Assembly (NCBI RefSeq): GCF_014696925.1
Contig: NZ_JACJQY010000048.1
Coordinates: 1 to 41,282 of the forward strand
Direction of reading: 5' to 3'
Length of the DNA: 41,282 nucleotides
Origin: Phormidium tenue FACHB-1050
GTDB lineage: Bacteria; Cyanobacteriota; Cyanobacteriia; Pseudanabaenales; Pseudanabaenaceae
Below, piece after piece: positions 1-19,735 of this stretch. Every line of letters starts with the position of its first letter. Position 1 is the first letter of the stretch. The notes under the pieces are model-generated. The model was not told the origin of the DNA. It saw only the letters and a program-made list of their open reading frames with translations, and ran no database searches. A program made the position numbers and the translations under genes.

Positions 1-3000
1 AAATTTTGCAGCGACATGATTCTCTAAGATCGATCTTTCCAGTAATCGACGGTTTACCAGTTCAGCAGATTTTGCCATTACAATTCTTACCTTTAAGAAC
101 TATAAATCTTCTGACTCTAACGGAAAATGACCAAACAGAAAAAACTCATCAATTAGCAAGGGAAGAAGCACAACGACCTTTTGATCTGACAAAAGATTTG
201 CTTATCCGTTCAACCTTATTGCAATTAGGAGAAACCTCAAACGTTCTACTCTTAACAACACATCATATTGTTTCCGATGATTGGTCGCTCAGAATATTGC
301 AAAAGGAGCTGTCTGTAATCTATACAGCATTTCGGCAGGGTCGGATTTCTCCACTAAAAGAGCTAGACATTCAGTACGTTGACTATGTGTATTGGCAGCA
401 GAAACGACTGAACGAGAAATTTCTTGATCAGCAATTAGTCTATTGGGAAAAACAATTAGCCTATGCACCACCGATATTAGACTTCCCAACCGATCGTCCT
501 CGTACAGTAACTCAAACCTACCAAGGTGAGACTGAGTTCTTTATACTTGATGTAGAACTCACACGTCAAGTCAAAATCCTTAGTCAACGTACAGGTATAA
601 CCCTGTTTATGTTGCTATTATCAGCTTTTGCAATTTTGCTTTCACGCTATAGTAGGCAACAAGACGTGGTGATTGGATCTCCAATTGCTAATCGTAACCG
701 AAAGGAACTGGAGTCCTTGATTGGCTGTTTTATTAATCTTCTGGCTTTACGAATTGATTTGACTGGTGACCCCACTTTTACAGAGCTTATTCAGAGGGTA
801 AAGGATGTTTCTCTTGGTGCTTATGCACACCAAGAACTTCCATTCGATAAATTAGTAGAAAAGCTATGCCCTAGTCGTAGTTTTAGCTATTCGCCAATAT
901 TCCAAGTAATGTTTGTATTGCAAAATGCTCCTGTAGAAATCTCAGAGCCTGTAGATTTAAAGCTAATTCCTCTGAATTCAGAGACAGGAACAGCACAATA
1001 CGATCTCACTCTGATGATGGAGGAGACGGAAATTGGGTTGAGTGGTCATTTTGAATACAACAGCGGACTATTTGATCGACTAACCATCAAACGATTGATT
1101 AGTCATTTCCAAATTTTACTAGAAAGCATTGTTGCTAATCCTAAACAGTTGATTTCTCAACTGCCAATACTAACTGAAAGAGAAAAGCTACAATTATTAG
1201 TTGAGTGGAATGACACTAGCACAGATTATCCTCAGGACAGATGTATTCACCATTTGTTTGAGGAGCAAGTGGAACGAACTCCCGATGCGATCGCTGTTTC
1301 CTTCCAAGACCAGAACCTAACTTATCGAGAACTAAATAGCCGAGCCAATCAACTTGCCCATTACTTACAGAATCTTGGCGTAAAGCCAAATGTATTGGTT
1401 GGTATTTGCATAGAACGCTCCCTAGAAATGATGGTGGGCTTATTGGGAATACTCAAAGCAGGTGGAGCATATGTGCCTTTAGATCCCAACTATCCTCAAG
1501 AAAGAATTGAGTATATGATTGCGGATGCTCAAATGCCAGTGCTGTTAACTCAATCTAAGTGGAAAATCCAAGAACATCAAGCTCAAGTTATTTGTCTTGA
1601 TTCAGACTGGGAAAAAATCGCTTATCAAAATCCAGACAATCCTGCTCCCATAAATGACAACCAACATGTAGCCTATGTCATTTATACCTCTGGCTCCACA
1701 GGTAAGCCGAAAGGAGTGATGATTGGTCAGAAAGCATTAGTCAGCTTTGTGCAAACAGCTATCGCTGAATATAAAATATCAGAAAGCGATCGCGTACTCC
1801 AGTTTGCCTCAATTAACTTTGATGCGGCAGTTGAAGAGATTTTTCCCTCTTTGTGTACGGGTGCTACTTTGGTATTGCGTACCGACAAGATGCTGTCTGA
1901 CTTACGAACATTTTTTCAAGCATGTGAGGATTTGCGTCTAAGTGTGTTAGATCTGCCAACAGCATACTGGCATCAGTTAGCTGCGGAGCTAGCAAGCACA
2001 AATGAATCTTTTCCAGAATCTTTGCGGTTAGTTATTATTGGAGGAGAAAAGGTACTGCTCGAACCAGTTAGAGATTGGCAGCAGTATGTTACTAAATCTG
2101 GAAAAGGCGATCGCTTACAACTGATTAATACCTATGGACCCACGGAAACGACTGTCGTAGCTACGCTCTATCGAATCCCAAACACATTCTCAAACATTAG
2201 CGAAGTTCCAATTGGTCGCCCTCTAGCCCATCTCCAAACTTATATCCTCGATTCACAATTACAACCAGTTCCCATAGGAGTAACTGGAGAACTACACATA
2301 GGTGGAGATAGCTTGGCAATAGGCTATCTCAATCGTCCAGACCTAACAGATGAGAAATTCATCCCTAATCCTTTCAGTTCACAATCAGGCAGCCGTCTTT
2401 ACAAAACTGGCGACTTAGCGCGTTATCTATCAGATGGCAACATTGAATACCTTGGACGCATTGATAACCAAGTCAAAATCCGTGGTTTCCGTATTGAGTT
2501 AGGCGAAGTAGAGACAGCCCTCTCTCAACATCCTCATCTCCGAGCAACTATTGTTACAACAAGAGAGGATACCCCAGGCGATAAACGCCTTGTTGCCTAT
2601 GTTGTTACAGAAGATCAAACTCAAGACATCGATCTTAGAGCTTTTCTAAAAGAGCGGCTACCGAGTTACATGATACCAAGTGCATTTGTCTTCTTAGAGG
2701 AAATGCCGATCACCCCTAATGGTAAAATAGATTATCGCAGCTTACCTGCACCAGATACATCTAGTACGCAATTAGAAAAGAATTTTGTCCCTCCCCGTAA
2801 TTCGACAGAAGAGACTCTCGCCAAGATTTGGTCTTACATATTAGGTGTGGAACGGGTTGGTATTAATGATAATTTCTTTGAGTTGGGTGGACATTCTTTA
2901 TTGTCAGTACGACTGATATCAGAAATTGAGAAGGCTTTTAATTATCAGATACCTCTGTCGTCATTATTCAAAATCAGTACCATAGCTGAAATTGCGGATC

Positions 3001-3926
3001 TAATTAGTTCTCAGCCTCAGGAGACAACCATTGAAAAAGAAAGTTCTTTAGGTTTAAATCTTGATGACTATAGAGCTTTAATTTCCCATAGTGCAGGTAA
3101 AACTGGCTTGCGTTTGGGTAAGCGTGGACTAATCATCAATACTTTGCCAGATGTGCAAACTACGTCTAAGCCTTTTATATGGATTGGGGAAGGGAGAACT
3201 AGCAAAAAACTTAAACTTAATCGCCCTGTCTATGTAATGCCTGGTGCTAGTCTTTCAGTATCAATGAATTCTCATGATAACTACATCTCTACGATTTCAA
3301 CTTTGTTAGTGGATGAGTTGTTGAGTGCCCAACCTGTTGGGTCTTATTCTTTGGGAGGTTGGTGCTACAACGGTCTGGTTGCCTTAGAAATGGCTCAACA
3401 GTTACGCGCTATGGGTAAGCAAGTTGATTTAGTATCACTCATTGATACTCCCGGAAAATCAAAGATTTTTGAATTTACTAACAAGGTAAACTCTTCTCTA
3501 GGTACTCTCAGATTTCATTTGTTTCAGATCTCTAAGTTATCTCTTAAAGATAAGTGGCATTACATCAAATCTAGGGTTAAGCGTTCACAGCCTGATTCTA
3601 ATAATTTAAAGACGGAAACGAAGAAGGAAAAATTTAAGTTTGATCAAGAGGCTGTAGATGTGCTGGGCAAAGCTGGAGATGACTATGAGCCTAAACATTA
3701 CTCTGGAAAGATTTTGTTGGTCATTGGGAATGAGCAGGTTGTTCATGGTCAGAAAGATATCAAGCACTTTGATCTTTCTTGGTTATTTCCTACCTTTGGT
3801 TGGGGTAATTTGTTTCAGGGTAAAGTTCATCTAGCTAAGATTAAATGCGATCACCTTGAGTTAATGGAAGAGCCTTTTTGTCAAGAAGTAGGTCAAACTA
3901 TTCAGACGATAGAGGATGAGAGTTGA
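1..3926 (+). CDS. Non-ribosomal peptide synthetase, terminal module C-A-T-TE (5' partial)
   Basis: The reading frame is already open at the left edge, with first full codon at 3, so the N-terminus lies outside the window. Domains by residue (counted from the codon at 6): condensation about 1-400 with HHIVSDDWS at 86-94; adenylation about 410-930 with YTSGSTGKPKG near 560, TYGPTETT, YKTGDLARY and NGKIDY; carrier domain with FFELGGHSLLS and phosphopantetheine Ser 964; thioesterase about 1080-1306. Aligning by eye to GrsA gives a pocket code D-A-E-D-I-G-T-V-V-K, with two acidic residues, which suggests a basic residue such as lysine (inference). The thioesterase has GGWCYNG instead of the usual GGWSFGG, so the nucleophile is Cys 1120; Asp 1147 and His 1283 could complete a triad. 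The module would load, condense and release the last residue of a peptide. Upstream modules are not visible, so the product cannot be named. Confidence 0.95.
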   Translation, partial: ILQRHDSLRSIFPVIDGLPVQQILPLQFLPLRTINLLTLTENDQTEKTHQLAREEAQRPFDLTKDLLIRSTLLQLGETSNVLLLTTHHIVSDDWSLRILQKELSVIYTAFRQGRISPLKELDIQYVDYVYWQQKRLNEKFLDQQLVYWEKQLAYAPPILDFPTDRPRTVTQTYQGETEFFILDVELTRQVKILSQRTGITLFMLLLSAFAILLSRYSRQQDVVIGSPIANRNRKELESLIGCFINLLALRIDLTGDPTFTELIQRVKDVSLGAYAHQELPFDKLVEKLCPSRSFSYSPIFQVMFVLQNAPVEISEPVDLKLIPLNSETGTAQYDLTLMMEETEIGLSGHFEYNSGLFDRLTIKRLISHFQILLESIVANPKQLISQLPILTEREKLQLLVEWNDTSTDYPQDRCIHHLFEEQVERTPDAIAVSFQDQNLTYRELNSRANQLAHYLQNLGVKPNVLVGICIERSLEMMVGLLGILKAGGAYVPLDPNYPQERIEYMIADAQMPVLLTQSKWKIQEHQAQVICLDSDWEKIAYQNPDNPAPINDNQHVAYVIYTSGSTGKPKGVMIGQKALVSFVQTAIAEYKISESDRVLQFASINFDAAVEEIFPSLCTGATLVLRTDKMLSDLRTFFQACEDLRLSVLDLPTAYWHQLAAELASTNESFPESLRLVIIGGEKVLLEPVRDWQQYVTKSGKGDRLQLINTYGPTETTVVATLYRIPNTFSNISEVPIGRPLAHLQTYILDSQLQPVPIGVTGELHIGGDSLAIGYLNRPDLTDEKFIPNPFSSQSGSRLYKTGDLARYLSDGNIEYLGRIDNQVKIRGFRIELGEVETALSQHPHLRATIVTTREDTPGDKRLVAYVVTEDQTQDIDLRAFLKERLPSYMIPSAFVFLEEMPITPNGKIDYRSLPAPDTSSTQLEKNFVPPRNSTEETLAKIWSYILGVERVGINDNFFELGGHSLLSVRLISEIEKAFNYQIPLSSLFKISTIAEIADLISSQPQETTIEKESSLGLNLDDYRALISHSAGKTGLRLGKRGLIINTLPDVQTTSKPFIWIGEGRTSKKLKLNRPVYVMPGASLSVSMNSHDNYISTISTLLVDELLSAQPVGSYSLGGWCYNGLVALEMAQQLRAMGKQVDLVSLIDTPGKSKIFEFTNKVNSSLGTLRFHLFQISKLSLKDKWHYIKSRVKRSQPDSNNLKTETKKEKFKFDQEAVDVLGKAGDDYEPKHYSGKILLVIGNEQVVHGQKDIKHFDLSWLFPTFGWGNLFQGKVHLAKIKCDHLELMEEPFCQEVGQTIQTIEDES

Positions 3927-4100: not shown

Positions 4101-4901
4101 TTATTGCCACATCCAGAGAGGCATTCCACTGGTTTCTGCTTCAAATTGGAGTCGGGCGATCGCACTGTCAGAACCACTAGGCAAGAATTTACTGGCAAAG
4201 GATTTTGGTGGCTTAATTGTAAAAACTTTAGTGGTTTTGGGATCAAGTCCCACTAGTTCGGCAGCATAGCGTCTTGCATCTTCTTCAGTGCCAATGCGAT
4301 CAACTAAACCCAATTCAACAGCTTGCTCACCTGTGAATACTCGTCCATCGGCGAACGATCGCACTGTAGCGGGGCTAAGTTTCCTACCTTCGGCTACGGT
4401 TTCCACAAACTGGTTGTAGCTGCTGTCGATTAACGATTGCAAGATCACTCTTTCTTCGGGAGTGATTTCGCGATCAAAGGAGAGAATATCTTTGTACGCG
4501 CCAGATTTGATTACTTTAAAGGAAACGCCAATCTTATCAAGTAATTTTTCGATATTGTTGCCGCGCAAAATTACGCCGATGCTACCTGTAATTGTGCCAG
4601 CATTAGAAATGATGTAATCTGCGCCAACACCAATATATACGCCGCCACTCGCGGAAATATTGCCAAAACTAGCAACTACTTTTACTTTTTCTCGTAGTCG
4701 CTTGAGAGCGGCATATATTTCTTGAGAGTCGCCGACGGTTCCCCCAGGACTGTCAATCCGAAGTAATAGCGCGGGAAATTTCTGCTCCTCCACAAATTCA
4801 AGAGCTTCAAGAACTCGAGTCCTTGTGCCTGACCCGATCGCCCCCGTGATTTCAATACGTGCGATTTTTTTGCGAAATTTGCGTTTTAAAAAGCCGAACA
4901 T
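4101..4901 (-). CDS. sppA: Signal peptide peptidase SppA, short form
   Basis: The 266-aa protein belongs to the S49 serine protease family, which cleaves residual signal peptides and, in cyanobacteria, has been linked to thylakoid and phycobilisome protein turnover. Visible features are RIDSPGGTVGDS, the nucleophile region GNISASGGVYIG, and GAYKDILSFDREITPEER, which carries the probable general-base lysine. This is the single-domain form of about 36 kDa or less rather than the duplicated 67-kDa type. The N-terminus starts MFGFLKRKFRKK and shows no clear membrane helix, so the protein may be soluble or peripheral. The ATG at 4901 begins directly before the conserved beta strand. It is convergent with the NRPS. 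Confidence 0.88.
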   Translation of the reverse strand: MFGFLKRKFRKKIARIEITGAIGSGTRTRVLEALEFVEEQKFPALLLRIDSPGGTVGDSQEIYAALKRLREKVKVVASFGNISASGGVYIGVGADYIISNAGTITGSIGVILRGNNIEKLLDKIGVSFKVIKSGAYKDILSFDREITPEERVILQSLIDSSYNQFVETVAEGRKLSPATVRSFADGRVFTGEQAVELGLVDRIGTEEDARRYAAELVGLDPKTTKVFTIKPPKSFASKFLPSGSDSAIARLQFEAETSGMPLWMWQ

Positions 4902-5189
4902 TAAATTATGAGTTGTGTTTTTGATTTGACTTTTACCATCTTAGCTTCTTACCGCAAATGATTGTCTGCACTGGATTTCTGCCAATACAAAGTAGCTTAA
5001 GCTACAAAAAATTACGAAAGGAGATGTCGTTCTGTTCATAGGGAAATATCTATATGGTAAAGGTAGGCGACGCTTTGCATTGCCTACTTTTACTATTTTT
5101 GGTTTTTGAGAATAGCTAAAAACCAATGATCAAAAGCTGTATCCTAAATATATTCAAGCTAAACATTTCGCAATATATTAAAACCCCAA
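4902..5189. other. Divergent spacer between sppA and the GT2 gene
   Basis: This 288-bp spacer should contain the promoters of two divergent genes. Two symmetric elements are visible: the perfect 14-bp palindrome GTAGCTTAAGCTAC at 4992-5005, and a hairpin at 5059-5090 with arms GTAGGC and GCCTAC and an interior rich in GC-TTT-GC. The second resembles the palindrome family found elsewhere in the window. I see no convincing gene here. Confidence 0.5.
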
Positions 5190-6551
5190 ATGCACGAGAC
5201 GGACTTTCGTAGCAGCCTTCAGACAGGAGGCGATCGCCGCAGACTCAAAACGATCATTGTGTTGACAATTGTCTATGGATTGACAGTTGGGATGCATTTT
5301 GCCCCTTGGAGTCGCTGGCTGCTGTTAGGGTTATTTAGTATTCAGGCTTTGCGGTTGATATTTGCGCCGCCTGCGATCGCACCAGCAGCTAATCACAAAA
5401 TCGATGCAGAAAAAGATTCAGATCAAGATTTACCATTTTTCTCACTGCTAGCATCGGCAAAAAATGAAGAAGCCGTAATTGGTAATTTAGTTAAAAATTT
5501 GTGCCAGCTCGATTATCAAAGCGATCGCTTTGAGGTCTGGATTGTTGATGACAATAGCAGCGATCGCACGCCTGAAGTTTTAGAATTACTGAAGCAGAAA
5601 TATCCACAATTAAAGACTCTGCGACGTGGTGATGATGCTCAGGGGGGAAAGTCGGGCGCTTTAAATCAAGTTTTAAGTTTAACGAAAGGCGATCTTATTG
5701 GTGTGTTTGATGCTGATGCCCAAGTACCTGCGGATGTGTTGCGATCGCTTGTACCCGTATTCCAACAACCAAAAGTTGGGGCTGTCCAGTTACGCAAGGC
5801 GATCGCCAATGCCTCTGAGAACTGGTGGACAGCAGGACAGTCAGCCGAAATGGCTCTGGATTGGTGTTTGCAGGATTTACGAATTCGGGTTGGCGGTGTG
5901 GGGGAATTGCGCGGCAATGGTCAATTTGTGCGCCTTACCGCCCTCAAAGACTGCGGTAGTTGGAATGAGCAAACTATTACGGATGATCTTGACCTCACGA
6001 TCCGACTGCATTTATGTCAATGGGATATTGCTTGTTTAAATTTCCCTGCGGTACAGGAAGAAGGTGTGGTGACAGCAAAACAGCTATGGCATCAGCGCAA
6101 TCGTTGGGCTGAAGGTGGCTTCCAACGCTATCTGGATTATGCGAATCTATTGCTAAGTGGACGCATGGGATTCTTAAAAACCTTTGATGCTTCACTGTTC
6201 TATATCAATCAATATTTACTAACCGTTGCCTTTATTCCCGATACGATCGCGGCGATTGTACTAAGACATAACCCGATGTTGCCTGCGATCGCGGGTTTTT
6301 CCCTTGCTTTAAGCTCAGTAACTATGGCTTTTGGACTGCGACGGGCTTATCAAATGTCATGGCGATCGGCGATCTGGCAAACGGTTTCTGGCATGATTTA
6401 TATGCTGCATTGGATTCCTGTGATTGCCAGTGTGACGCTGAGAATGTGCGTTCTTCCGAAGCGTTTAAAATGGGTAAAAACCCAACACCAAGGTGCGGGA
6501 GAGAATTTATTGGCTGATATCGAACTTCAAGAGATAGAAAACCATGCATGA
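5190..6551 (+). CDS. mgdA: GT2 glycosyltransferase, probable monoglucosyldiacylglycerol synthase
   Basis: The 453-aa membrane glycosyltransferase has two hydrophobic segments near residues 21-60, a cytosolic GT2 catalytic domain, and several hydrophobic segments after about residue 330. Motifs are VDDNSSD near 119-125, DADA at 174-177, TDDLD at 264-268 and QRNRW at 302-306, the processive-type D,D,D,QxxRW set. The N-terminal pattern and RGNGQFVR closely resemble, from memory, the cyanobacterial enzyme Sll1377, which makes glucosyl-diacylglycerol, the precursor of thylakoid galactolipids. Another lipid or polysaccharide GT2 remains possible. The ATG at 5190 has no strong ribosome binding site. 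Its stop overlaps the next gene by 8 nt, suggesting translational coupling. Confidence 0.78.
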   Translation: MHETDFRSSLQTGGDRRRLKTIIVLTIVYGLTVGMHFAPWSRWLLLGLFSIQALRLIFAPPAIAPAANHKIDAEKDSDQDLPFFSLLASAKNEEAVIGNLVKNLCQLDYQSDRFEVWIVDDNSSDRTPEVLELLKQKYPQLKTLRRGDDAQGGKSGALNQVLSLTKGDLIGVFDADAQVPADVLRSLVPVFQQPKVGAVQLRKAIANASENWWTAGQSAEMALDWCLQDLRIRVGGVGELRGNGQFVRLTALKDCGSWNEQTITDDLDLTIRLHLCQWDIACLNFPAVQEEGVVTAKQLWHQRNRWAEGGFQRYLDYANLLLSGRMGFLKTFDASLFYINQYLLTVAFIPDTIAAIVLRHNPMLPAIAGFSLALSSVTMAFGLRRAYQMSWRSAIWQTVSGMIYMLHWIPVIASVTLRMCVLPKRLKWVKTQHQGAGENLLADIELQEIENHA

Positions 6552-7719
6552 TTGGATTGTAATCGGTGGAGGAATCACAGGTATATCGCTGAGCTATGAA
6601 CTGCAAAAGGCTGGCTTTTCGGTATTGCTAATTGAGCAGCATCAACAACTTCAGGGTGGCAGTAGTCTTGGCTATGGGGGCATCTCATACTGGGCTGGCT
6701 CAACGGCTCTCACGCAACAACTTTGCCAAGAGGGAATTACTAGACAACGAGAACTTTCCCATGAGCTAGGCATGGATACGGAGTTTCGTGAGATTGATTT
6801 GCTATTGACTCTCGAACCTGACGCAGATTCAGAAGCTATTCTCGCGCAATATGCTAATTGCATGATTCCCTCGACTTTGCTCAACGCACAGGAAGCCGTT
6901 GAGCGCGAGCCGCAATTAAATGTTAATGGAATTGGTGGAGCTTTACTGCTGCCCCATGCTCACATTAATTTAAATTGTTTTGTTAAGGCTCATCAGCAAG
7001 CAATCCAAAAATTGGGCGGCGAAATTATTTACACTAAAGTCAATCAAATCTTAATTGAGGGCAATCGCGTCGCTGGTGTAACTACAGAACAGGGAGAATT
7101 TCGCAGTGAACGGGTAGCTGTTTGTGCAGGAGGCTTATCTCGCGCTCTACTTAAAGCATCAGGGATTCACGCCAGAATCTATTACACCCATGCCGAAGCG
7201 ATTGAGACAGAACCAGTTGATCTCGAATTGAGATCGATGGTAATGCCTGCGGATACTAAGCGCTATGAATTAGAAGGAGCAACTAAGGACATTGATCAAG
7301 ATGCTATTTGGGATGTGGCTGGGCATGAGCTATTACCTCCTTCGATTGATGCTGGAGCGATTCAGTTTTGCGATCGCCGCATTAGATTTGGTCAACTTAG
7401 CCGCGTTTTAACTGATCCTTACGCAGCGATCGATCCCATTGAAAGTGAATTGGCTATTCGTGCTTATGTCAGTAAAGTTCTACCCAAAGTTGGTGAGTTA
7501 AAGGGCAAATGGCGAAATTGTTTGGTTGCTTTTAGTAGTGACAATTTACCGCTAGTTGGTTCACTAAAGGAATACGAAAACCTCCATCTATTCTCTGGAT
7601 TCACTAGTCCAACTGTTTATGTACCGACTCTATCGAGAAGGTTTGCAGAACATGCGAAGGGTAAAGCTGATGAGATCATTGACGCACTCTCTCCTCAAAG
7701 ATTTTCAGCAATTGCTTAA
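6544..7719 (+). CDS. FAD-dependent oxidoreductase, DAO family
   Basis: The 391-aa protein starts MHDWIVIGGGITGISLSYEL, a Rossmann dinucleotide fold with GxGxxG at residues 8-13, followed by an acidic end of strand two (LLIEQ). The layout is that of the glycine/D-amino-acid oxidase (DadA/ThiO/glycerol-3-phosphate dehydrogenase) superfamily, with a C-terminal FAD contact near SDNLPLVGSLKEYENLHLFSGF. The substrate cannot be read from the sequence. The start ATG overlaps the end of the GT2 gene by 8 nt, so the two are probably one operon, although no shared pathway is obvious. Confidence 0.8.
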   Translation: MHDWIVIGGGITGISLSYELQKAGFSVLLIEQHQQLQGGSSLGYGGISYWAGSTALTQQLCQEGITRQRELSHELGMDTEFREIDLLLTLEPDADSEAILAQYANCMIPSTLLNAQEAVEREPQLNVNGIGGALLLPHAHINLNCFVKAHQQAIQKLGGEIIYTKVNQILIEGNRVAGVTTEQGEFRSERVAVCAGGLSRALLKASGIHARIYYTHAEAIETEPVDLELRSMVMPADTKRYELEGATKDIDQDAIWDVAGHELLPPSIDAGAIQFCDRRIRFGQLSRVLTDPYAAIDPIESELAIRAYVSKVLPKVGELKGKWRNCLVAFSSDNLPLVGSLKEYENLHLFSGFTSPTVYVPTLSRRFAEHAKGKADEIIDALSPQRFSAIA

Positions 7720-10254: not shown

Positions 10255-10656
10255 ATGATCATGAGTACTCCAATTTTAGAAACAAATCTAACTGTTAGCT
10301 CAGTAGTGAAATCAGCAGTAAATGTATTTGTAAAAAGTGAAGCTAACGGCAAGGTTAGTGCTATGGTCTTGGGCTTGCCAGAATATCGCGTAGAAAGTGG
10401 CGATCGCCAATCTGCTCTTGCTGATTTACAAAAACTAGTTACAGCGAAGCTTATAGGCGCTGAAGTTGTTTCATTAGAAATCGAAATCCCTCAACCTGAA
10501 AATCCTTGGCTCCGTTTCGCAGGAATTTTTAAGGACGACCTATCTTTTGATCGAATGCAAGAAGATATAGCTGAGTATCGTCGCGAAAAGGATGCTGAGT
10601 TAGAGAACTACTATCATCAAATTGAGATGGAAGAATCTAAGGAACAGGTTCTATGA
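10255..10656 (+). CDS. Antitoxin partner of PIN-domain toxin
   Basis: This 133-aa protein precedes and overlaps a PIN-domain gene by 4 nt (ATGA), the usual antitoxin-toxin arrangement. The end, with ENPWLRFAGIFKDD and an acidic helix (EYRREKDAELENYY), matches the toxin-binding tail seen in cyanobacterial antitoxins of VapC-like toxins. The N-terminal half, with KSEANGKVSAMVLGLPEYRV, may be the DNA-binding or dimerisation part, but I do not recognise the fold. An alternative ATG lies at 10261. AAGAGGG just upstream may be the ribosome binding site. Confidence 0.68.
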   Translation: MIMSTPILETNLTVSSVVKSAVNVFVKSEANGKVSAMVLGLPEYRVESGDRQSALADLQKLVTAKLIGAEVVSLEIEIPQPENPWLRFAGIFKDDLSFDRMQEDIAEYRREKDAELENYYHQIEMEESKEQVL

Positions 10657-11072
10657 CTTTATGGATTCTTGACACCGATCACATATCTTTGTATCAGCGA
10701 GGAGAGCTGAATGTCATTAATCGCCTGAGTTCAGCTAATCCCAAAAATCTAGCGGTTACGGTTATTTCGCTTGAGGAACAAATGTACGGAAGACTCAGTG
10801 AAATTAAGAAGGCTACTTCCGCTATTTCTTTGATAACTGCTTATTCGAGATTAGAAATCACTCTGGACTATTTCAAAAGTGTCCAAGTTTTGCCATTTGA
10901 CCAAAATGCTCATACATCTTTTGAGAGTTTGATACGTCAAAAGTTGCGAGTTGGAACTCAAGATTTACGCATTGCGGCGATTGCTTTGTCTGTAAATGGA
11001 ATAGTCGTAACTCGCAATCAAAAGGATTTTGGTAAAGTGCCAAATCTGCAAGTAGAAAATTGGGCAGTTTAA
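10653..11072 (+). CDS. PIN-domain toxin, VapC-like ribonuclease
   Basis: The 139-aa protein begins MTLWILDTDHISLYQRG. PIN-domain acidic residues are visible: D7 (LDTD), E41 (VISLEE), D104 (TQDLRIAAIAL) and D125 (QKDF), which would bind Mg for RNA cleavage. IVVTRNQKDFGKVPNLQVENW is the typical C-terminal end of the family. It overlaps the antitoxin gene by 4 nt. Its RNA target cannot be inferred. Confidence 0.87.
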   Translation: MTLWILDTDHISLYQRGELNVINRLSSANPKNLAVTVISLEEQMYGRLSEIKKATSAISLITAYSRLEITLDYFKSVQVLPFDQNAHTSFESLIRQKLRVGTQDLRIAAIALSVNGIVVTRNQKDFGKVPNLQVENWAV

Positions 11073-11108: not shown

Positions 11109-13067
11109 TCAGCCGTTTTCCATCTCAGCAAAATGTTCCATCAGCGATCGGTGGATAAATATATAGCCGCCACCAACTTTTTGGAGAAATAGTTTGTCGC
11201 TTGCCCAATCGAGGAATTTGGCATAATTCCAAGGGATGAATCCTTTGAAATATAGAATCAATCGCAATGTAAAGTGCTGAAGAACCGCTTGCCCCCCAAA
11301 ACGTAGTACGCTAACCAGAATAACCACTAGTTGAGCAAATTTCCTAGGAAATTCTTCACTAATTAAGGCTTCTAAAATCAAGCTAATTATTACACTGACT
11401 AAACCGTAAGCTAAGGCACGTATAGCTGACTTTCTAATACTTTGATTTGGGTAAATTTTTACCTCAACTTCCGAACCGATTAGCCCCTTATTCAGACCAA
11501 TACTCAGTCCTAAAATTAACCCAAGTATAGATCCAAAGAGTAGACTAGTTATAAACCAAGGTATAAAACCAATATTAAATCCACCAATTAAACCAAAACG
11601 ACCAACCACAAAATAGATTCCAATAGAACCACAAAGTAGACCACCTATTAGTCCTCCTGTTAGACAAATACTCAACCATTTTATAAAGTTTGTTTTAAAT
11701 TCTTTCCAATTCCATACAACTGTTTCAACAGGTTTAATATCTGAAGTAAGGAATTTAATAGTTATTGCCCACCAGAATAAAGCACTGAGCCAATCCCCTA
11801 ATTGACTAAAAAATCTATAACCTCCTCCCCAAGATCCCCACTCAGACAAACTACCAAGAAATAAAGCAGTGATTAAAAAACTCATAACGAAATAAGGAAT
11901 GAGATTACGATCTTTGCCCTGTATCCACCAGTCAGGTTGTATCTTTTCAATTAGAAAAATAGTTTGAGAATATCTAACCATTTGCTGTGATATACATATC
12001 AACCAACGTGTTACATATTGTCGAGAATAAGCTTGTTTCGCTTGAGATTTATAACTTGGATGATACGCTTTTGGTCTTGAACCCTGAAATATGCGATTGA
12101 TATAGTCATCAAATAATTGTTTCTTACGATTTGAAGCAATTGTACTTACAGGAATATCTGCAAACTCAATTCCCTGATAAGCAAGCACCATGATATTGAG
12201 TAACAAAGGAGATTGAGCTAGCTCTTGAAGTGTCTCATCCTCTATTAGCAATGTTTTTAACAAAGTCAGATTAAACTGAAGGCGATCCAGATAATTGCGA
12301 ATTTGATCAGCAGTGAGAGGTTGCAGAACAAGAGCAGATTGCAGTTTTAACTGATGCCCCATTTCCGCATAATCCCTCACCCGACAACACACCACCATCT
12401 CAGTTGCTTGCTCCTGCTGAAAAAAATTCAACGCCGTCATACAAGCATTACGCTTTTCTAAATCCCGAATTTCATCCAAACCATCCAATAACAGCAATAA
12501 TTCCTGATTCTCTACCCACATCTGCCCGATCTTACGATTTACCTGATACTTACTATTCAGTTCCTCAACAATCCATTTAGCAATAGTCTGTTTTTCCGCC
12601 GCCCAAGAAGAAAGATTTAACACCACAGGAATACGACGATCTATCTCCTCTTCCGCACGAGTAATTAAATCCCTTGCCAATTGCAGCAAAGTAATCGTTT
12701 TCCCCGACCCTGGTTCACCCAAAATTAGCAGCGTCCCACCTTCTCCCAACTTATCAAATACGTCAATTGCAGGTGTACCCGCTGGTAAAGGTTGACAGGA
12801 CTTGTCTGGATTAATCAGATCTAAATTCCAAGGAGAAGCAACGGCACTAGGACGATTCTCTAATCCGAGAACAATGGAAATCTGCTCGTGCAGCGACTTC
12901 TCTAAAACACCCTCAACCCAAGCAGTTCTAACGTTATTCAATAGCGCTTTGCGATTGCGTAACTCCTGCCGCGACATTTCGCTATCCAAACGGATTTGTC
13001 CAACGTTAACCGTTCCACCTTGGACGAGAATGCCTATTTTTTCTGCGAACTTACCGAACTGATTCAC
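11109..13067 (-). CDS. NACHT-family STAND ATPase (NLR-like) with N-terminal signalling motif
   Basis: The 652-aa protein has three parts. Residues 6-25 carry KFAEKIGILVQGGTVNVGQI, which matches the C-terminus of the upstream gene product. Residues about 100-330 form a NACHT P-loop ATPase with GEPGSGKT at 117-124 and LLLLLDGLDEI near 190-200. Residues about 385-610 hold several hydrophobic helices (for example YFVMSFLITALFLG), so a membrane domain replaces the repeat sensor typical of NLRs. The end, FLQKVGGGYIFIHRSLMEHF, is a common tail of cyanobacterial NACHT proteins. It follows the small gene by 27 bp, in the same direction. NACHT proteins generally act as switches in immunity or cell death; that role here is an inference. 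Confidence 0.85.
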   Translation of the reverse strand: MNQFGKFAEKIGILVQGGTVNVGQIRLDSEMSRQELRNRKALLNNVRTAWVEGVLEKSLHEQISIVLGLENRPSAVASPWNLDLINPDKSCQPLPAGTPAIDVFDKLGEGGTLLILGEPGSGKTITLLQLARDLITRAEEEIDRRIPVVLNLSSWAAEKQTIAKWIVEELNSKYQVNRKIGQMWVENQELLLLLDGLDEIRDLEKRNACMTALNFFQQEQATEMVVCCRVRDYAEMGHQLKLQSALVLQPLTADQIRNYLDRLQFNLTLLKTLLIEDETLQELAQSPLLLNIMVLAYQGIEFADIPVSTIASNRKKQLFDDYINRIFQGSRPKAYHPSYKSQAKQAYSRQYVTRWLICISQQMVRYSQTIFLIEKIQPDWWIQGKDRNLIPYFVMSFLITALFLGSLSEWGSWGGGYRFFSQLGDWLSALFWWAITIKFLTSDIKPVETVVWNWKEFKTNFIKWLSICLTGGLIGGLLCGSIGIYFVVGRFGLIGGFNIGFIPWFITSLLFGSILGLILGLSIGLNKGLIGSEVEVKIYPNQSIRKSAIRALAYGLVSVIISLILEALISEEFPRKFAQLVVILVSVLRFGGQAVLQHFTLRLILYFKGFIPWNYAKFLDWASDKLFLQKVGGGYIFIHRSLMEHFAEMENG

Positions 13068-17079: not shown

Positions 17080-17910
17080 ATGAACAAAAAAAAGGTCATC
17101 ACCTTCCTTTCTCTGATCGTTGTCACCCTATGCGCGATCACAGGATGCATCTCGCCAACAATCGAACAGACAAGTAAACCTGTAGCCAATCAATCAGCAG
17201 TTCCTTCAGTCAAACAAGAGAACATCCAATTAACGGTTTCGGCAGCAGTTAGTCTCAAGGAAGCATTGGGCGAAATTACACCTTTATACAGCAAGGCTAA
17301 ATCTAATGTTGCCATTCGCAATAATTTTGGCAGTTCAGGCGACTTACAACAACAAATCGTAAATGGTGCTCCCGTTGATGTCTTTATTTCTGCGGCATCC
17401 AAACAAATGGATGAATTGCAGAAAAAAGACTTAATCGTTGCTGATACCCGCCGCGATTTATTAAGTAATCGCTTGGTATTAATTGTACCAGAGGATAAGA
17501 GTGATGCTAGTGATTTGAAAGACTTAACCAATGCTAATATCGAACGAATTGCGATCGGCGATCCCCGTAGTGTTCCCGTAGGTCAATATGCCGAACAAGC
17601 TCTGACTAAATTGGATTTATTACAAGAAGTCCAATCAAAACTTGTCTTAGGAAACAATGTGCGTCAAGTACTGCAATTTGTCGAGTCTGGCAATGCTCAA
17701 GCAGGAATTGTCTACGCAACCGATGCAAAAACTTCCACTAAAGTTAAGGTAGTACAAATCATTGATGCTAAACTTCACAAACCGATCGTCTATCCAATCG
17801 CTGTTTTGCAAAAAAGCTCCAATCAAGAAAGCGCCAAATCCTATCTAGAGTATCTATCCAGCGAACCAGTCAAGACTATTTTTGAGAAATATGGATTTAG
17901 CAGCCTTTGA
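17080..17910 (+). CDS. modA: Molybdate ABC transporter substrate-binding lipoprotein
   Basis: The 276-aa lipoprotein binds molybdate (or tungstate) outside the cytoplasmic membrane and passes it to ModB. The signal peptide MNKKKVITFLSLIVVTLCA is followed by a lipobox ending ITGC at Cys 23. Family features are LTVSAAVSLKEALGEITPLY, NNFGSSGDLQQQI, GAPVDVFISAA, GDPRSVPVGQYA and GIVYATDA. The open frame reaches back to 17032, but the ATG at 17080 starts exactly at the signal peptide. The end overlaps modBC by 20 nt. Confidence 0.93.
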   Translation: MNKKKVITFLSLIVVTLCAITGCISPTIEQTSKPVANQSAVPSVKQENIQLTVSAAVSLKEALGEITPLYSKAKSNVAIRNNFGSSGDLQQQIVNGAPVDVFISAASKQMDELQKKDLIVADTRRDLLSNRLVLIVPEDKSDASDLKDLTNANIERIAIGDPRSVPVGQYAEQALTKLDLLQEVQSKLVLGNNVRQVLQFVESGNAQAGIVYATDAKTSTKVKVVQIIDAKLHKPIVYPIAVLQKSSNQESAKSYLEYLSSEPVKTIFEKYGFSSL

Positions 17911-19735
17911 TTTCTCTCCATTTTGGATATCCCTAAAGGTGGCAATTACTGCCATCTTTTTTACGTTCTTTTTAGGAATTGTGGCAGCTTATAGTCTCCT
18001 TGAATATCGTGGTAAATGGAAATCAGTACTTGATAGCATTTTTCTTGCGCCATTGGTGTTACCACCTACTGTCGTTGGCTTTCTCTTACTCCAACTATTT
18101 GGACAATATGGCTGGCTAGGCAAATTTCTACAACTCTTCCGTTTCAATATCATTTTCACTTGGTATGCAGGCGTAGTCGCAGCAGTCGTTGTTACCTTTC
18201 CACTCATGTATAAGACAGCTCAAGGAGCCTTCGAGCAGGTAGATGGGAATTTAATTCGAGCCGCGAAAACCCTTGGGGCTTCTGAATTTCGAGCCTTTTG
18301 GCAAATAGCCTTACCCCTCGCCTTCCCAGGAATTTTAGCAGGAGCGGTGCTTGCCTTTGCTAGAGGCTTAGGTGAATTTGGCGCGACCCTAATGTTAGCG
18401 GGTAATATTCCCAAGCAAACCACCACCATTCCCCTCGCCATTTATGCCGCCGTCCAAGCAGGGGATAATCAAGAAGCTTGGCTCTGGACAGCGATTATTT
18501 TATCAATGTCGTTTTCAGCGATCGCCATTGCTAATCTCTGGTCAAATAAGAGAGAAAGGAAAAAGGAAAAAGGAAAAAGGAAAAAGGAAAAAATTCAATC
18601 CTCGATTACCAAACCACCATTACCAAACCATCATTACCAATCCCCAATTACTAATCCTCAAAAAGGCTTATTCATCAATATCACCAAACAGTTACCTGAG
18701 TTTGATTTGCAAATTACTTTACACTGTGTTGATCAATCAATCGGCATTTTGGGGGCATCAGGTACAGGTAAAAGTATGCTGCTCAAGTGCATTGCAGGGA
18801 TGGAAACTCCATCAAGTGGGCGGATTGTAGTTAATGGGAAGATTTTATTTGATAGTACTAACAATATTAATTTACCTAGTCGCGATCGCCATATTGGTTT
18901 TCTATTCCAAAATTACGCACTATTTCCACATCTAACGGTCGCACAAAATATTGCCTTTGGTTTGCCAAAGGAATTACCATCATTACAAATTAAACAAAAA
19001 GTTTCTGAGCAATTACATAGCATTGAGCTACAGGGATTTGGCGATCGCTATCCCCATCAACTTTCTGGTGGACAGCAGCAAAGAGTTGCTCTAGCAAGAG
19101 CGCTAGTTAGTCAACCTGAAATCCTTCTGCTTGATGAACCATTTTCGGCTTTAGATACCCATCTGCGTAGCCAAATGGAACGAGAGCTAATTTCGGCGCT
19201 TAGCAATTATCAGGGGCTAACGCTATTTGTCACTCACAACATTGAGGAAGCCTACCGCATCTGTACAAATCTGTTGATTTTAGATCATGGTCAAGTCATG
19301 CGATATGGGAAGAAGTCAGATGTTCTCGAAAATCCCTCAAATCTGGAAACAGCGAGGCTGACGGGCTGCAAAAACTTTTCACGAATAAACCTGATTGCAC
19401 CTCATTATGTCGAAGCGATCGATTGGGATTGTAATCTCCAAGTTAACTATGATGCTACAAACCTGACAACACACATAGGCACTCGCGCCCACCATATTAC
19501 ATTTTTAGAAAATTCAGTCAAAAGTGATTTACCAAATACGATTCCCTGTTGGTTAGTTCGCACTACAGAAACACCTCATCGTATGACCTTATATATTAAG
19601 TTAAATGCTCCTCCCAATCATGATTGGGATTATCATCTACAAGCAGAAGTATTTAAAGAGAGATGGCTTATTCTCAAGGAATATTCTCAACCGTGGCAAG
19701 CTTGTTTTGATCCTAATCAACTTTTTTTAGTCTAA
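17891..19735 (+). CDS. modBC: Fused molybdate transporter permease and ATPase ModBC
   Basis: This protein of about 614 aa joins the permease ModB (residues about 1-215, several membrane helices and the EAA loop region GASEFRAFWQIALPLAFPG) to the ATPase ModC. ModC shows GASGTGKS, LSGGQQQRVALARAL, ILLLDEPFSALD and VTHNIEEAY, then a TOBE-like C-terminal region from about 480. The fusion is known in cyanobacteria. The join is unusual: the linker RERKKEKGKRKKEK is encoded by five 7-bp repeats and the following NHHYQSPITNPQ region by four 14-bp repeats. ATG at 17891 is preferred over the TTG at 17882; it overlaps modA by 20 nt, so the two are probably co-translated. Confidence 0.93.
   Translation: MDLAAFDFSPFWISLKVAITAIFFTFFLGIVAAYSLLEYRGKWKSVLDSIFLAPLVLPPTVVGFLLLQLFGQYGWLGKFLQLFRFNIIFTWYAGVVAAVVVTFPLMYKTAQGAFEQVDGNLIRAAKTLGASEFRAFWQIALPLAFPGILAGAVLAFARGLGEFGATLMLAGNIPKQTTTIPLAIYAAVQAGDNQEAWLWTAIILSMSFSAIAIANLWSNKRERKKEKGKRKKEKIQSSITKPPLPNHHYQSPITNPQKGLFINITKQLPEFDLQITLHCVDQSIGILGASGTGKSMLLKCIAGMETPSSGRIVVNGKILFDSTNNINLPSRDRHIGFLFQNYALFPHLTVAQNIAFGLPKELPSLQIKQKVSEQLHSIELQGFGDRYPHQLSGGQQQRVALARALVSQPEILLLDEPFSALDTHLRSQMERELISALSNYQGLTLFVTHNIEEAYRICTNLLILDHGQVMRYGKKSDVLENPSNLETARLTGCKNFSRINLIAPHYVEAIDWDCNLQVNYDATNLTTHIGTRAHHITFLENSVKSDLPNTIPCWLVRTTETPHRMTLYIKLNAPPNHDWDYHLQAEVFKERWLILKEYSQPWQACFDPNQLFLV
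18558..18592 (+). repeat. Five tandem copies of a 7-bp repeat GGAAAAA inside modBC
   Basis: GGAAAAA is repeated five times without a break in the modBC linker. Because 7 is not a multiple of 3, each gain or loss of one copy shifts the downstream ModC frame. Short tandemly repeated heptamers of this type are known in cyanobacteria, usually between genes. Confidence 0.9.
18605..18660 (+). repeat. Four tandem copies of a 14-bp repeat in modBC
   Basis: The units ATTACCAAACCACC, ATTACCAAACCATC, ATTACCAATCCCCA and ATTACTAATCCTCA follow directly. They are typical of cyanobacterial intergenic short repeats but here form part of the linker before the ModC ATPase. Confidence 0.85.

Follow-up and report, generated by a model that had tools for sequence, protein, structure and literature searches.

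The 41,282-nucleotide stretch of DNA analysed here (the window) is contig NZ_JACJQY010000048.1 of the cyanobacterium Phormidium tenue FACHB-1050, contig C43 of genome G000 in our numbering. Its first gene encodes the last module of a nonribosomal peptide synthetase (NRPS), which ends in a thioesterase (TE) domain with a cysteine nucleophile. The enzyme is probably a two-module NRPS, the orthologue of OA858_03905 of Pseudanabaena galeata CCNP1313, of which the window holds the terminating module; it would join an aryl-acyl unit to arginine or lysine and release the product by some means other than the beta-hydroxyl of the last residue. Judged by sequence comparison, a cysteine nucleophile is neither unusual nor diagnostic of strained-ring release among cyanobacterial TEs.

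The open reading frame (ORF) spans window positions 3-3926 and encodes 1307 residues without an internal stop; it is left-open at the contig end. Residue numbers are those of this translation (P0001). Four domains lie on the plus strand: a partial condensation (C) domain (3..1199; Pfam residues 1-399, model 51-456 of 456; HHIVSD motif at residues 87-92), an adenylation (A) domain (1257..2726; Pfam AMP-binding 419-776, AMP-binding_C 835-908), a carrier domain (PCP, or T; 2814..3005; Pfam PP-binding 938-1001, with the pantetheine Ser965 at 2895-2897) and the TE domain (3069..3923; Pfam Thioesterase residues 1095-1290). About 50 N-terminal residues of the C domain are missing at the contig edge, as the Pfam match begins at model position 51. 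The TE scores 41.3 bits against PF00975 (cut-off 26.4), with the PCP immediately N-terminal to it.

The catalytic triad can be pinpointed to Cys1121 (codon 3363..3365, plus strand) in the elbow GGWCYNG, Asp1148 at position I (3444..3446, plus strand; LIDTP) and His1284 (3852..3854, plus strand; CDHLEL). An earlier note on this DNA had picked out the same three residues; its numbers, 1120, 1147 and 1283, were counted from a TTG at nucleotide 6 and do not apply to this translation. The TE is predicted to have an alpha/beta-hydrolase thioesterase fold. The model (pLDDT 82) has AB3403 of Acinetobacter baumannii (4zxh) as its top Foldseek match, the rows shown being thioesterases, and VIA-align gives Z scores of 17.9-20.7 for entries of Pks13, 7crn/7dxo, NocB, AB3403 and EntF. 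Among the 50 VIA-align matches listed, AB3403 scores 19.8 and SulM 17.1-17.2; ObiF is not among them, which carries no information.

The A-domain pocket code is DAEDIGTVVK, just as the earlier note had read it, and our extraction correctly returned DAWTIAAICK for the GrsA control. Table 1 of PMC11356792 gives DAEDIGTVV for the second module of P. galeata OA858_03905, with arginine as predicted substrate. The suggestion that the terminal residue is basic is thereby supported: predicted from the code, the last residue is probably arginine or lysine. Literature text searches found no precedent for DAEDIGTVVK, or for DAEDIG with a lysine adenylation domain.

The window TE belongs to a lineage-specific clade of 16 domains in the Pseudanabaenaceae. 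A search of 58 genomes, including its own, recovered relatives over the full length, some with 57-68% and others with 38-40% identity. They occur in 8 of the 25 other genomes of the genus (G004, G005, G008, G009, G013, G016, G019 and P. galeata, G022) and in one of nine genomes from other genera of the family (G027). In a sample of 386 genomes from the phylum, no match listed from outside the Pseudanabaenaceae exceeded 80.6 bits, and the three listed above 75 bits had 26-32% identity. A scan of genome contigs with the window TE as single query returned no relatives; with the family alignment it returned eight loci, titled Pseudanabaena or uncultured cyanobacterium.

In the 16-domain alignment the cysteine and the histidine are both invariant (16/16), and the position I column holds aspartate in 15 domains and glutamate in one. 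The cysteine proposed in the earlier note is thus borne out, and its conservation together with that of the triad marks a conserved site; a chance or private change in the window TE was considered and is ruled out by the same count. Two main types can be told apart by the elbow. Ten domains, the window TE included, are of type A, with GGWCYNG in nine and AGWCYNG in one; five are of type B (GGNCYEG), and the G027 domain has GGYCFEG. The features that define the family are a single clade, an N-terminal G..G...RGLI block, PFxWIG, the cysteine elbow and an SWxxPxxG block. The window TE shows them as YRALL..G..G...KRGLII, a PFxWIG strand and DLSWLFPYxGW.

How common is cysteine in other cyanobacterial TEs? 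We compared 39 of them, namely the best-scoring matches plus the TE of C51, another contig of the window genome, and that of genome G036, a set that leans towards query-like TEs. Cysteine is present in 14 and serine in 25 (cysteine in 13 of 38 without locus L026); in three the elbow did not fit the pattern used, and the residue was read by eye from the sequence (L026 and L034 as cysteine, L005 as serine). A tree of these and the 16 family domains, built by a quick method without bootstrap and with long branches for L034, L026 and L035, requires at least six changes between cysteine and serine. It splits the 16 family TEs plus L026 and L035 from the 37 others with SH-aLRT 98, and the 16 alone with 90. 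The earlier note had allowed that phylogeny might place the domain among ordinary hydrolytic TEs with one changed residue; we find a clade apart. L026 (G003) is a very diverged relative of the family with the elbow GWCFDA, glutamate at position I and an SWLFPSYGW block. L035 (G180), a TE in a 269-residue ORF with the elbow GFCFGG and glutamine at the expected position I, forms the deepest branch beside the family.

The earlier note had also linked the cysteine to the release of strained rings such as beta-lactones. In an ObiF- or SulM-like mechanism of that kind, a beta-nucleophile carried by the last residue would attack the Cys thioester and close a beta-lactone or beta-lactam. The active-site layout does not support this. 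In the accessible text of PMC11298585 and PMC6668435, the TEs of ObiF and SulM combine cysteine with a catalytic aspartate at position II, whereas the AB3403 TE combines it with aspartate at position I. ObiF1 has Gly1173 and no triad aspartate at position I, and an ObiF double mutant with aspartate placed there had roughly one fifth of the activity of the D1254A single mutant (same sources), which speaks further against strained-ring release by our TE. The position I aspartate absent from ObiF and SulM is the one that the window family keeps, as do EntF and AB3403. Moreover, the Gln-Cys-Asn motif of SulM is absent from all 16 domains, the family elbow being W/N/Y-Cys-Y/F. The family thus shares with these beta-lactone and beta-lactam enzymes a cysteine nucleophile and an alpha/beta-hydrolase TE, but differs in the place of the aspartate, the elbow motif and the predicted last residue; in strained-ring lines the final module would load a beta-hydroxylated residue or diaminopropionate.

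AB3403 is the closer comparison. It is the top match by sequence as well as by Foldseek, it is likewise C-A-T-TE with cysteine in GGWC and aspartate at position I, and the cysteine, position I aspartate and histidine of the family align with its triad in a profile alignment. However, TE identity is 22-24%, and the N-terminal block of the family does not align to AB3403 by sequence.

Position II is less clear-cut. No aspartate is conserved in this region among the 16 domains, but a glutamate directly after the strand on which position II is expected is present in 8 of the 10 type A domains, the window included, which could be counted in favour of a strained ring. The same site holds glutamine in the other two type A domains and lysine or arginine in all six remaining domains. 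An acid (aspartate or glutamate) lies eight residues further on in 14 of 16; in the window the two positions (222 and 230 of alignment A1) fall within 3732-3758.

The predicted substrates of the family point the same way as position I. The terminal codes of lines with a family TE resemble those for basic residues, valine, proline, glycine and threonine, and ring closure through a beta-hydroxyl therefore cannot be the chemistry common to the family. Sister TEs would serve valine-, proline- and glycine-like codes, and the residue at the window TE is probably arginine or lysine, which lacks a beta-hydroxyl. These codes are to be read with some care: one A domain (L071) was missed by the pattern, one code (L063_4116) has a gap, and the split A-domain ORF of G013 is, judged by eye, too short to reach the A10 lysine, which leaves the final K of that code unsafe. 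On the other side, the type A relative L069 has the terminal code DFWNIGMVHK, which we take to resemble that for threonine. Type B modules read DVENIGGVT, for which threonine or valine is the printed prediction, as valine is for DALWLGGTF (PMC11356792, in the part available). The cysteine itself is of course shared with ObiF and SulM. Taken together, the strained-ring reading looks weak, contradicted at position I, though possible acids lie near position II, and we regard it as very improbable. We reject a beta-lactone deduced from the cysteine alone, in view of the position I aspartate and the frequency of cysteine in other TEs. The GxCxG motif of the fungal literature, in the text accessible, concerns SAT domains and offers no precedent for a TE.

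The P. galeata genome (G022) has two TE-bearing genes, with their low ends at 842,738 and 1,530,477, in agreement with the accessible part of PMC11356792. One of them, OA858_03905 (L074), encodes a 1982-residue A-T-C-A-T-TE protein beside the same signal-peptide-peptidase-like gene that follows the window NRPS (266 residues, 4101..4901, minus strand; named by eye). That gene is the convergent neighbour in 6 of 14 loci, two of the 14 being short contigs. Over window positions 1-2995 the DNA agrees with that of the P. galeata gene at 94.5% of bases, and this identity ends at 2995 (plus strand), at the end of the PCP. Protein identity is 93% for the C domain, 96% for the A core, 98% for the A C-terminus and 84% for the PCP, and falls to 37% for the linker and TE. 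From its nucleotide 4834 onward, the P. galeata gene instead matches, at 92% DNA identity, the TE-bearing end of that species' second cluster, an NRPS/polyketide synthase. The two DNA matches overlap, which places the crossover in the PCP.

This is a natural release-domain swap: on genes that otherwise share 94.5% of their DNA, the same neighbour and the same module-2 code, the window gene carries a type A and the P. galeata gene a type B Cys TE, about 37% identical. Exchange of termination domains (TE for reductase) in cyanobacterial lines is described in PMC12184294. Exchange of one TE for another was not found in the accessible text of that paper, which is no proof of absence, and the passages available from PMC11356792 do not discuss the TE nucleophile.

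The A core has been exchanged as well. The window genome (5.6 Mb, 89 contigs) contains three Condensation matches, on C43 (the window), C87 and C51; that on C51 belongs to a complete C-A-T-TE with the serine elbow GGFSFGS. The 4.4-kb contig C87 carries a second copy of the window module. The first 101 bases of the window (1..101, plus strand) are identical to the start of C87, with the first mismatch at base 102, and we therefore read the left contig edge as a point where the assembly broke within a repeat. Protein identity between the copies is 89% in the C domain and 82% in the TE but only 31% in the A core, and their pocket codes are DAEDIGTVVK (window) and DALWLGGTFK (C87). The differing stretch covers 1517..2235 (plus strand); inside it the only match is 49 bases long, and the flanking DNA is 88% and 79% identical. 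Alignment of the copies thus indicates an exchange of the A core, an event already described for NRPSs (PMC8097286, as far as the source was available).

A gene at a contig edge, with a copy on C87 beside a transposase-like ORF (L004, 4131-4376, directly after the copy; named by eye) and a patchy distribution in the genus (8 of 25 genomes besides that of the window), might be a decaying fragment without function. But the frame runs for 1307 codons without a stop, its triad and PCP serine are intact, the C87 copy keeps the TE triad too, and an intact orthologue occupies the same site in P. galeata. We consider decay extremely unlikely.

The orthologue also indicates what lies beyond the contig edge. 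Residue 1 of the window protein aligns with residue 656 of the P. galeata protein, so an A-T module and some 50 further residues are expected upstream of the window. The first A domain of the P. galeata protein has the code SIFHSGICMK, with serine at 235, and is treated as a hydroxy- or carboxy-acid domain in the accessible text of PMC11356792. What the assembly lacks here is most likely a loading module of A-T type with this code, for an acid other than an amino acid.

A second contig of the window genome ends where such a synthetase would be expected to start. C20 carries a gene for a 4-hydroxyphenylpyruvate dioxygenase (HPPD; L084, 11835-12920) near its end and terminates in ATGTTGATCCA. 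In G009 and G013 the junction between dioxygenase and synthetase aligns with it at 81-82%; the contig end is the point at which these relatives begin the NRPS. Among the 38 family genomes, the dioxygenase is present at 88% or more in four (that of the window, G009, G013 and P. galeata), and the SIFHSG A domain in three (G009, G013 and P. galeata), all among those four. In other comparisons, G036, which lies outside the family, has both the dioxygenase and an A domain with SIFHSGICMK, on different contigs; G037 has a 56% dioxygenase and no A domain above 40% identity to the SIFHSG A domain.

The dioxygenase reaches 409 bits in NCBIfam 4HPPD (cut-off 277). Among solved structures it matches the HPPD chain 1t47 best (2e-107); 2r5v, a hydroxymandelate synthase, is at 1e-45. 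The GNF motif is kept; its phenylalanine separates HPPD from hydroxymandelate synthase, a distinction for which no literature support was found. A hydroxymandelate synthase was considered and rejected on the family cut-off, the best match and the motif. Since the enzyme is closest to HPPDs, the loading unit may be homogentisate or a related compound. No precedent for homogentisic acid with adenylation domains was found in the literature text available, and the main text of PMC11356792, as far as accessible, contains neither homogentis- nor dioxygenase.

We propose the following route. The loading module would activate an acid other than an amino acid, probably an aryl one that the co-occurring dioxygenase could plausibly supply, and the second module would add arginine or lysine to give an aryl-acyl-(Arg/Lys) conjugate. 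Thiol-thioester exchange would then move the chain from the PCP to Cys1121 of the TE, and a nucleophile other than the beta-hydroxyl of the last residue would free it.

One such outcome is plain hydrolysis to a linear aryl-acyl-arginine or -lysine acid. The EntF/AB3403-type triad, the small two-module line and a TE that serves unrelated terminal residues, for which a special nucleophile would be unnecessary, are all consistent with it. However, exchanging the cysteine of ObiF for serine made that enzyme exclusively hydrolytic (PMC11298585 and PMC6668435, in the parts available). This raises the prospect that the cysteine is kept to avoid water, with the proviso that ObiF has another triad.

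Relatives with an A-T-TE architecture bear on the same point. There is an unbroken one in G009 (L067, 889 residues), a split one in G013 (L064) and one in G036 whose Cys TE falls in a different clade (L085); A-T-TE was read in L067 and L085 from codes and alignments rather than Pfam, and the PCP of L085 by eye. Hydrolysis by these proteins would undo the activation in a futile cycle. Together with the invariant cysteine, this tilts us slightly from hydrolysis towards transfer or cyclisation. Two of these loci deserve a description. L064 (G013, 4587-7438) is a second A-T-TE copy in two ORFs split near the end of the A domain, possibly through a frameshift or an assembly error. L085 (G036, contig C120, 6821-10216) encodes A(SIFHSGICMK)-T-TE with a shortened C-like N-terminus (by eye). 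It shares with the window line the loading code expected upstream, a Cys TE (elbow GLCIGG) and a dioxygenase in the same genome; it differs in having a single module, a TE outside the family and a contig other than that of the dioxygenase.

Cyclisation or acyl transfer is therefore the outcome we slightly favour, at a little under an even chance; hydrolysis comes close behind it. The attacking nucleophile could be a side-chain amine, a phenol that comes with the loading unit, or an amine or alcohol from outside. Besides the invariant cysteine and the A-T-TE architectures, cyclising TEs (7crn and the surfactin TE 1jmk) are among the structural neighbours of the model. But hydrolysing TEs are too, for example NocB (an epimerase-hydrolase by its entry title), no acceptor gene is tied to the locus, and no side-chain nucleophile is common to all the lines.

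Several observations weigh against the proposal of a two-module aryl-acyl-(Arg/Lys) line with this mode of release. The window genome assembly contains no SIFHSG A domain, and because the upstream A-T module is absent the two-module reading draws on orthology and on the contig ends. Seven further family genomes have a weaker dioxygenase match (33-61% identity, mostly partial) and lack the SIFHSG A domain. In P. galeata the dioxygenase lies far from the SIFHSG synthetase (1.53 versus 0.85 Mb). The glutamate near position II, a site placed by alignment, is a possible alternative triad acid. The A-T-TE argument is weak, with one unbroken family copy (G009), a split one (G013) and a G036 TE outside the family. 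Finally, hydrolysis would make sense if the acid were tailored while bound to the carrier.

Other genes of the window, named by eye only, include two short overlapping ORFs with the look of an antitoxin and a PIN-type toxin (10255-11072), a large protein of the P-loop (NACHT-like) kind whose C-terminal half contains several hydrophobic stretches (11109-13067) and, after a ModA-like gene, an apparent molybdate ABC permease-ATPase fusion in one ORF (17882-19735).

What might the family do as a whole? On a speculative view, which we hold to be rather doubtful, its private Cys TEs (types A and B) would be interchangeable cassettes, moved by crossovers in the PCP so that the product is changed by release alone. 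TEs with the position I aspartate would then carry out non-hydrolytic acyl transfer, also on a single aryl acid in the A-T-TE proteins, fed by a dedicated 4-hydroxyphenylpyruvate dioxygenase that supplies homogentisate as the unit.

Apart from SulM and ObiF, AB3403 is described as the one NRPS TE with cysteine whose structure has been determined, and as itself functionally uncharacterised (PMC11298585, in the text available). The family adds 16 natural cases of cysteine with an acid at position I, one of them glutamate in place of aspartate. For genome mining it carries a warning: the cysteine is not to be read as a beta-lactone marker. The window and P. galeata synthetases form a pair with the same chain-making module but different Cys TEs, and their products would show what the TE adds. 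Comparing the two products would test whether cysteine by itself predicts ring formation.

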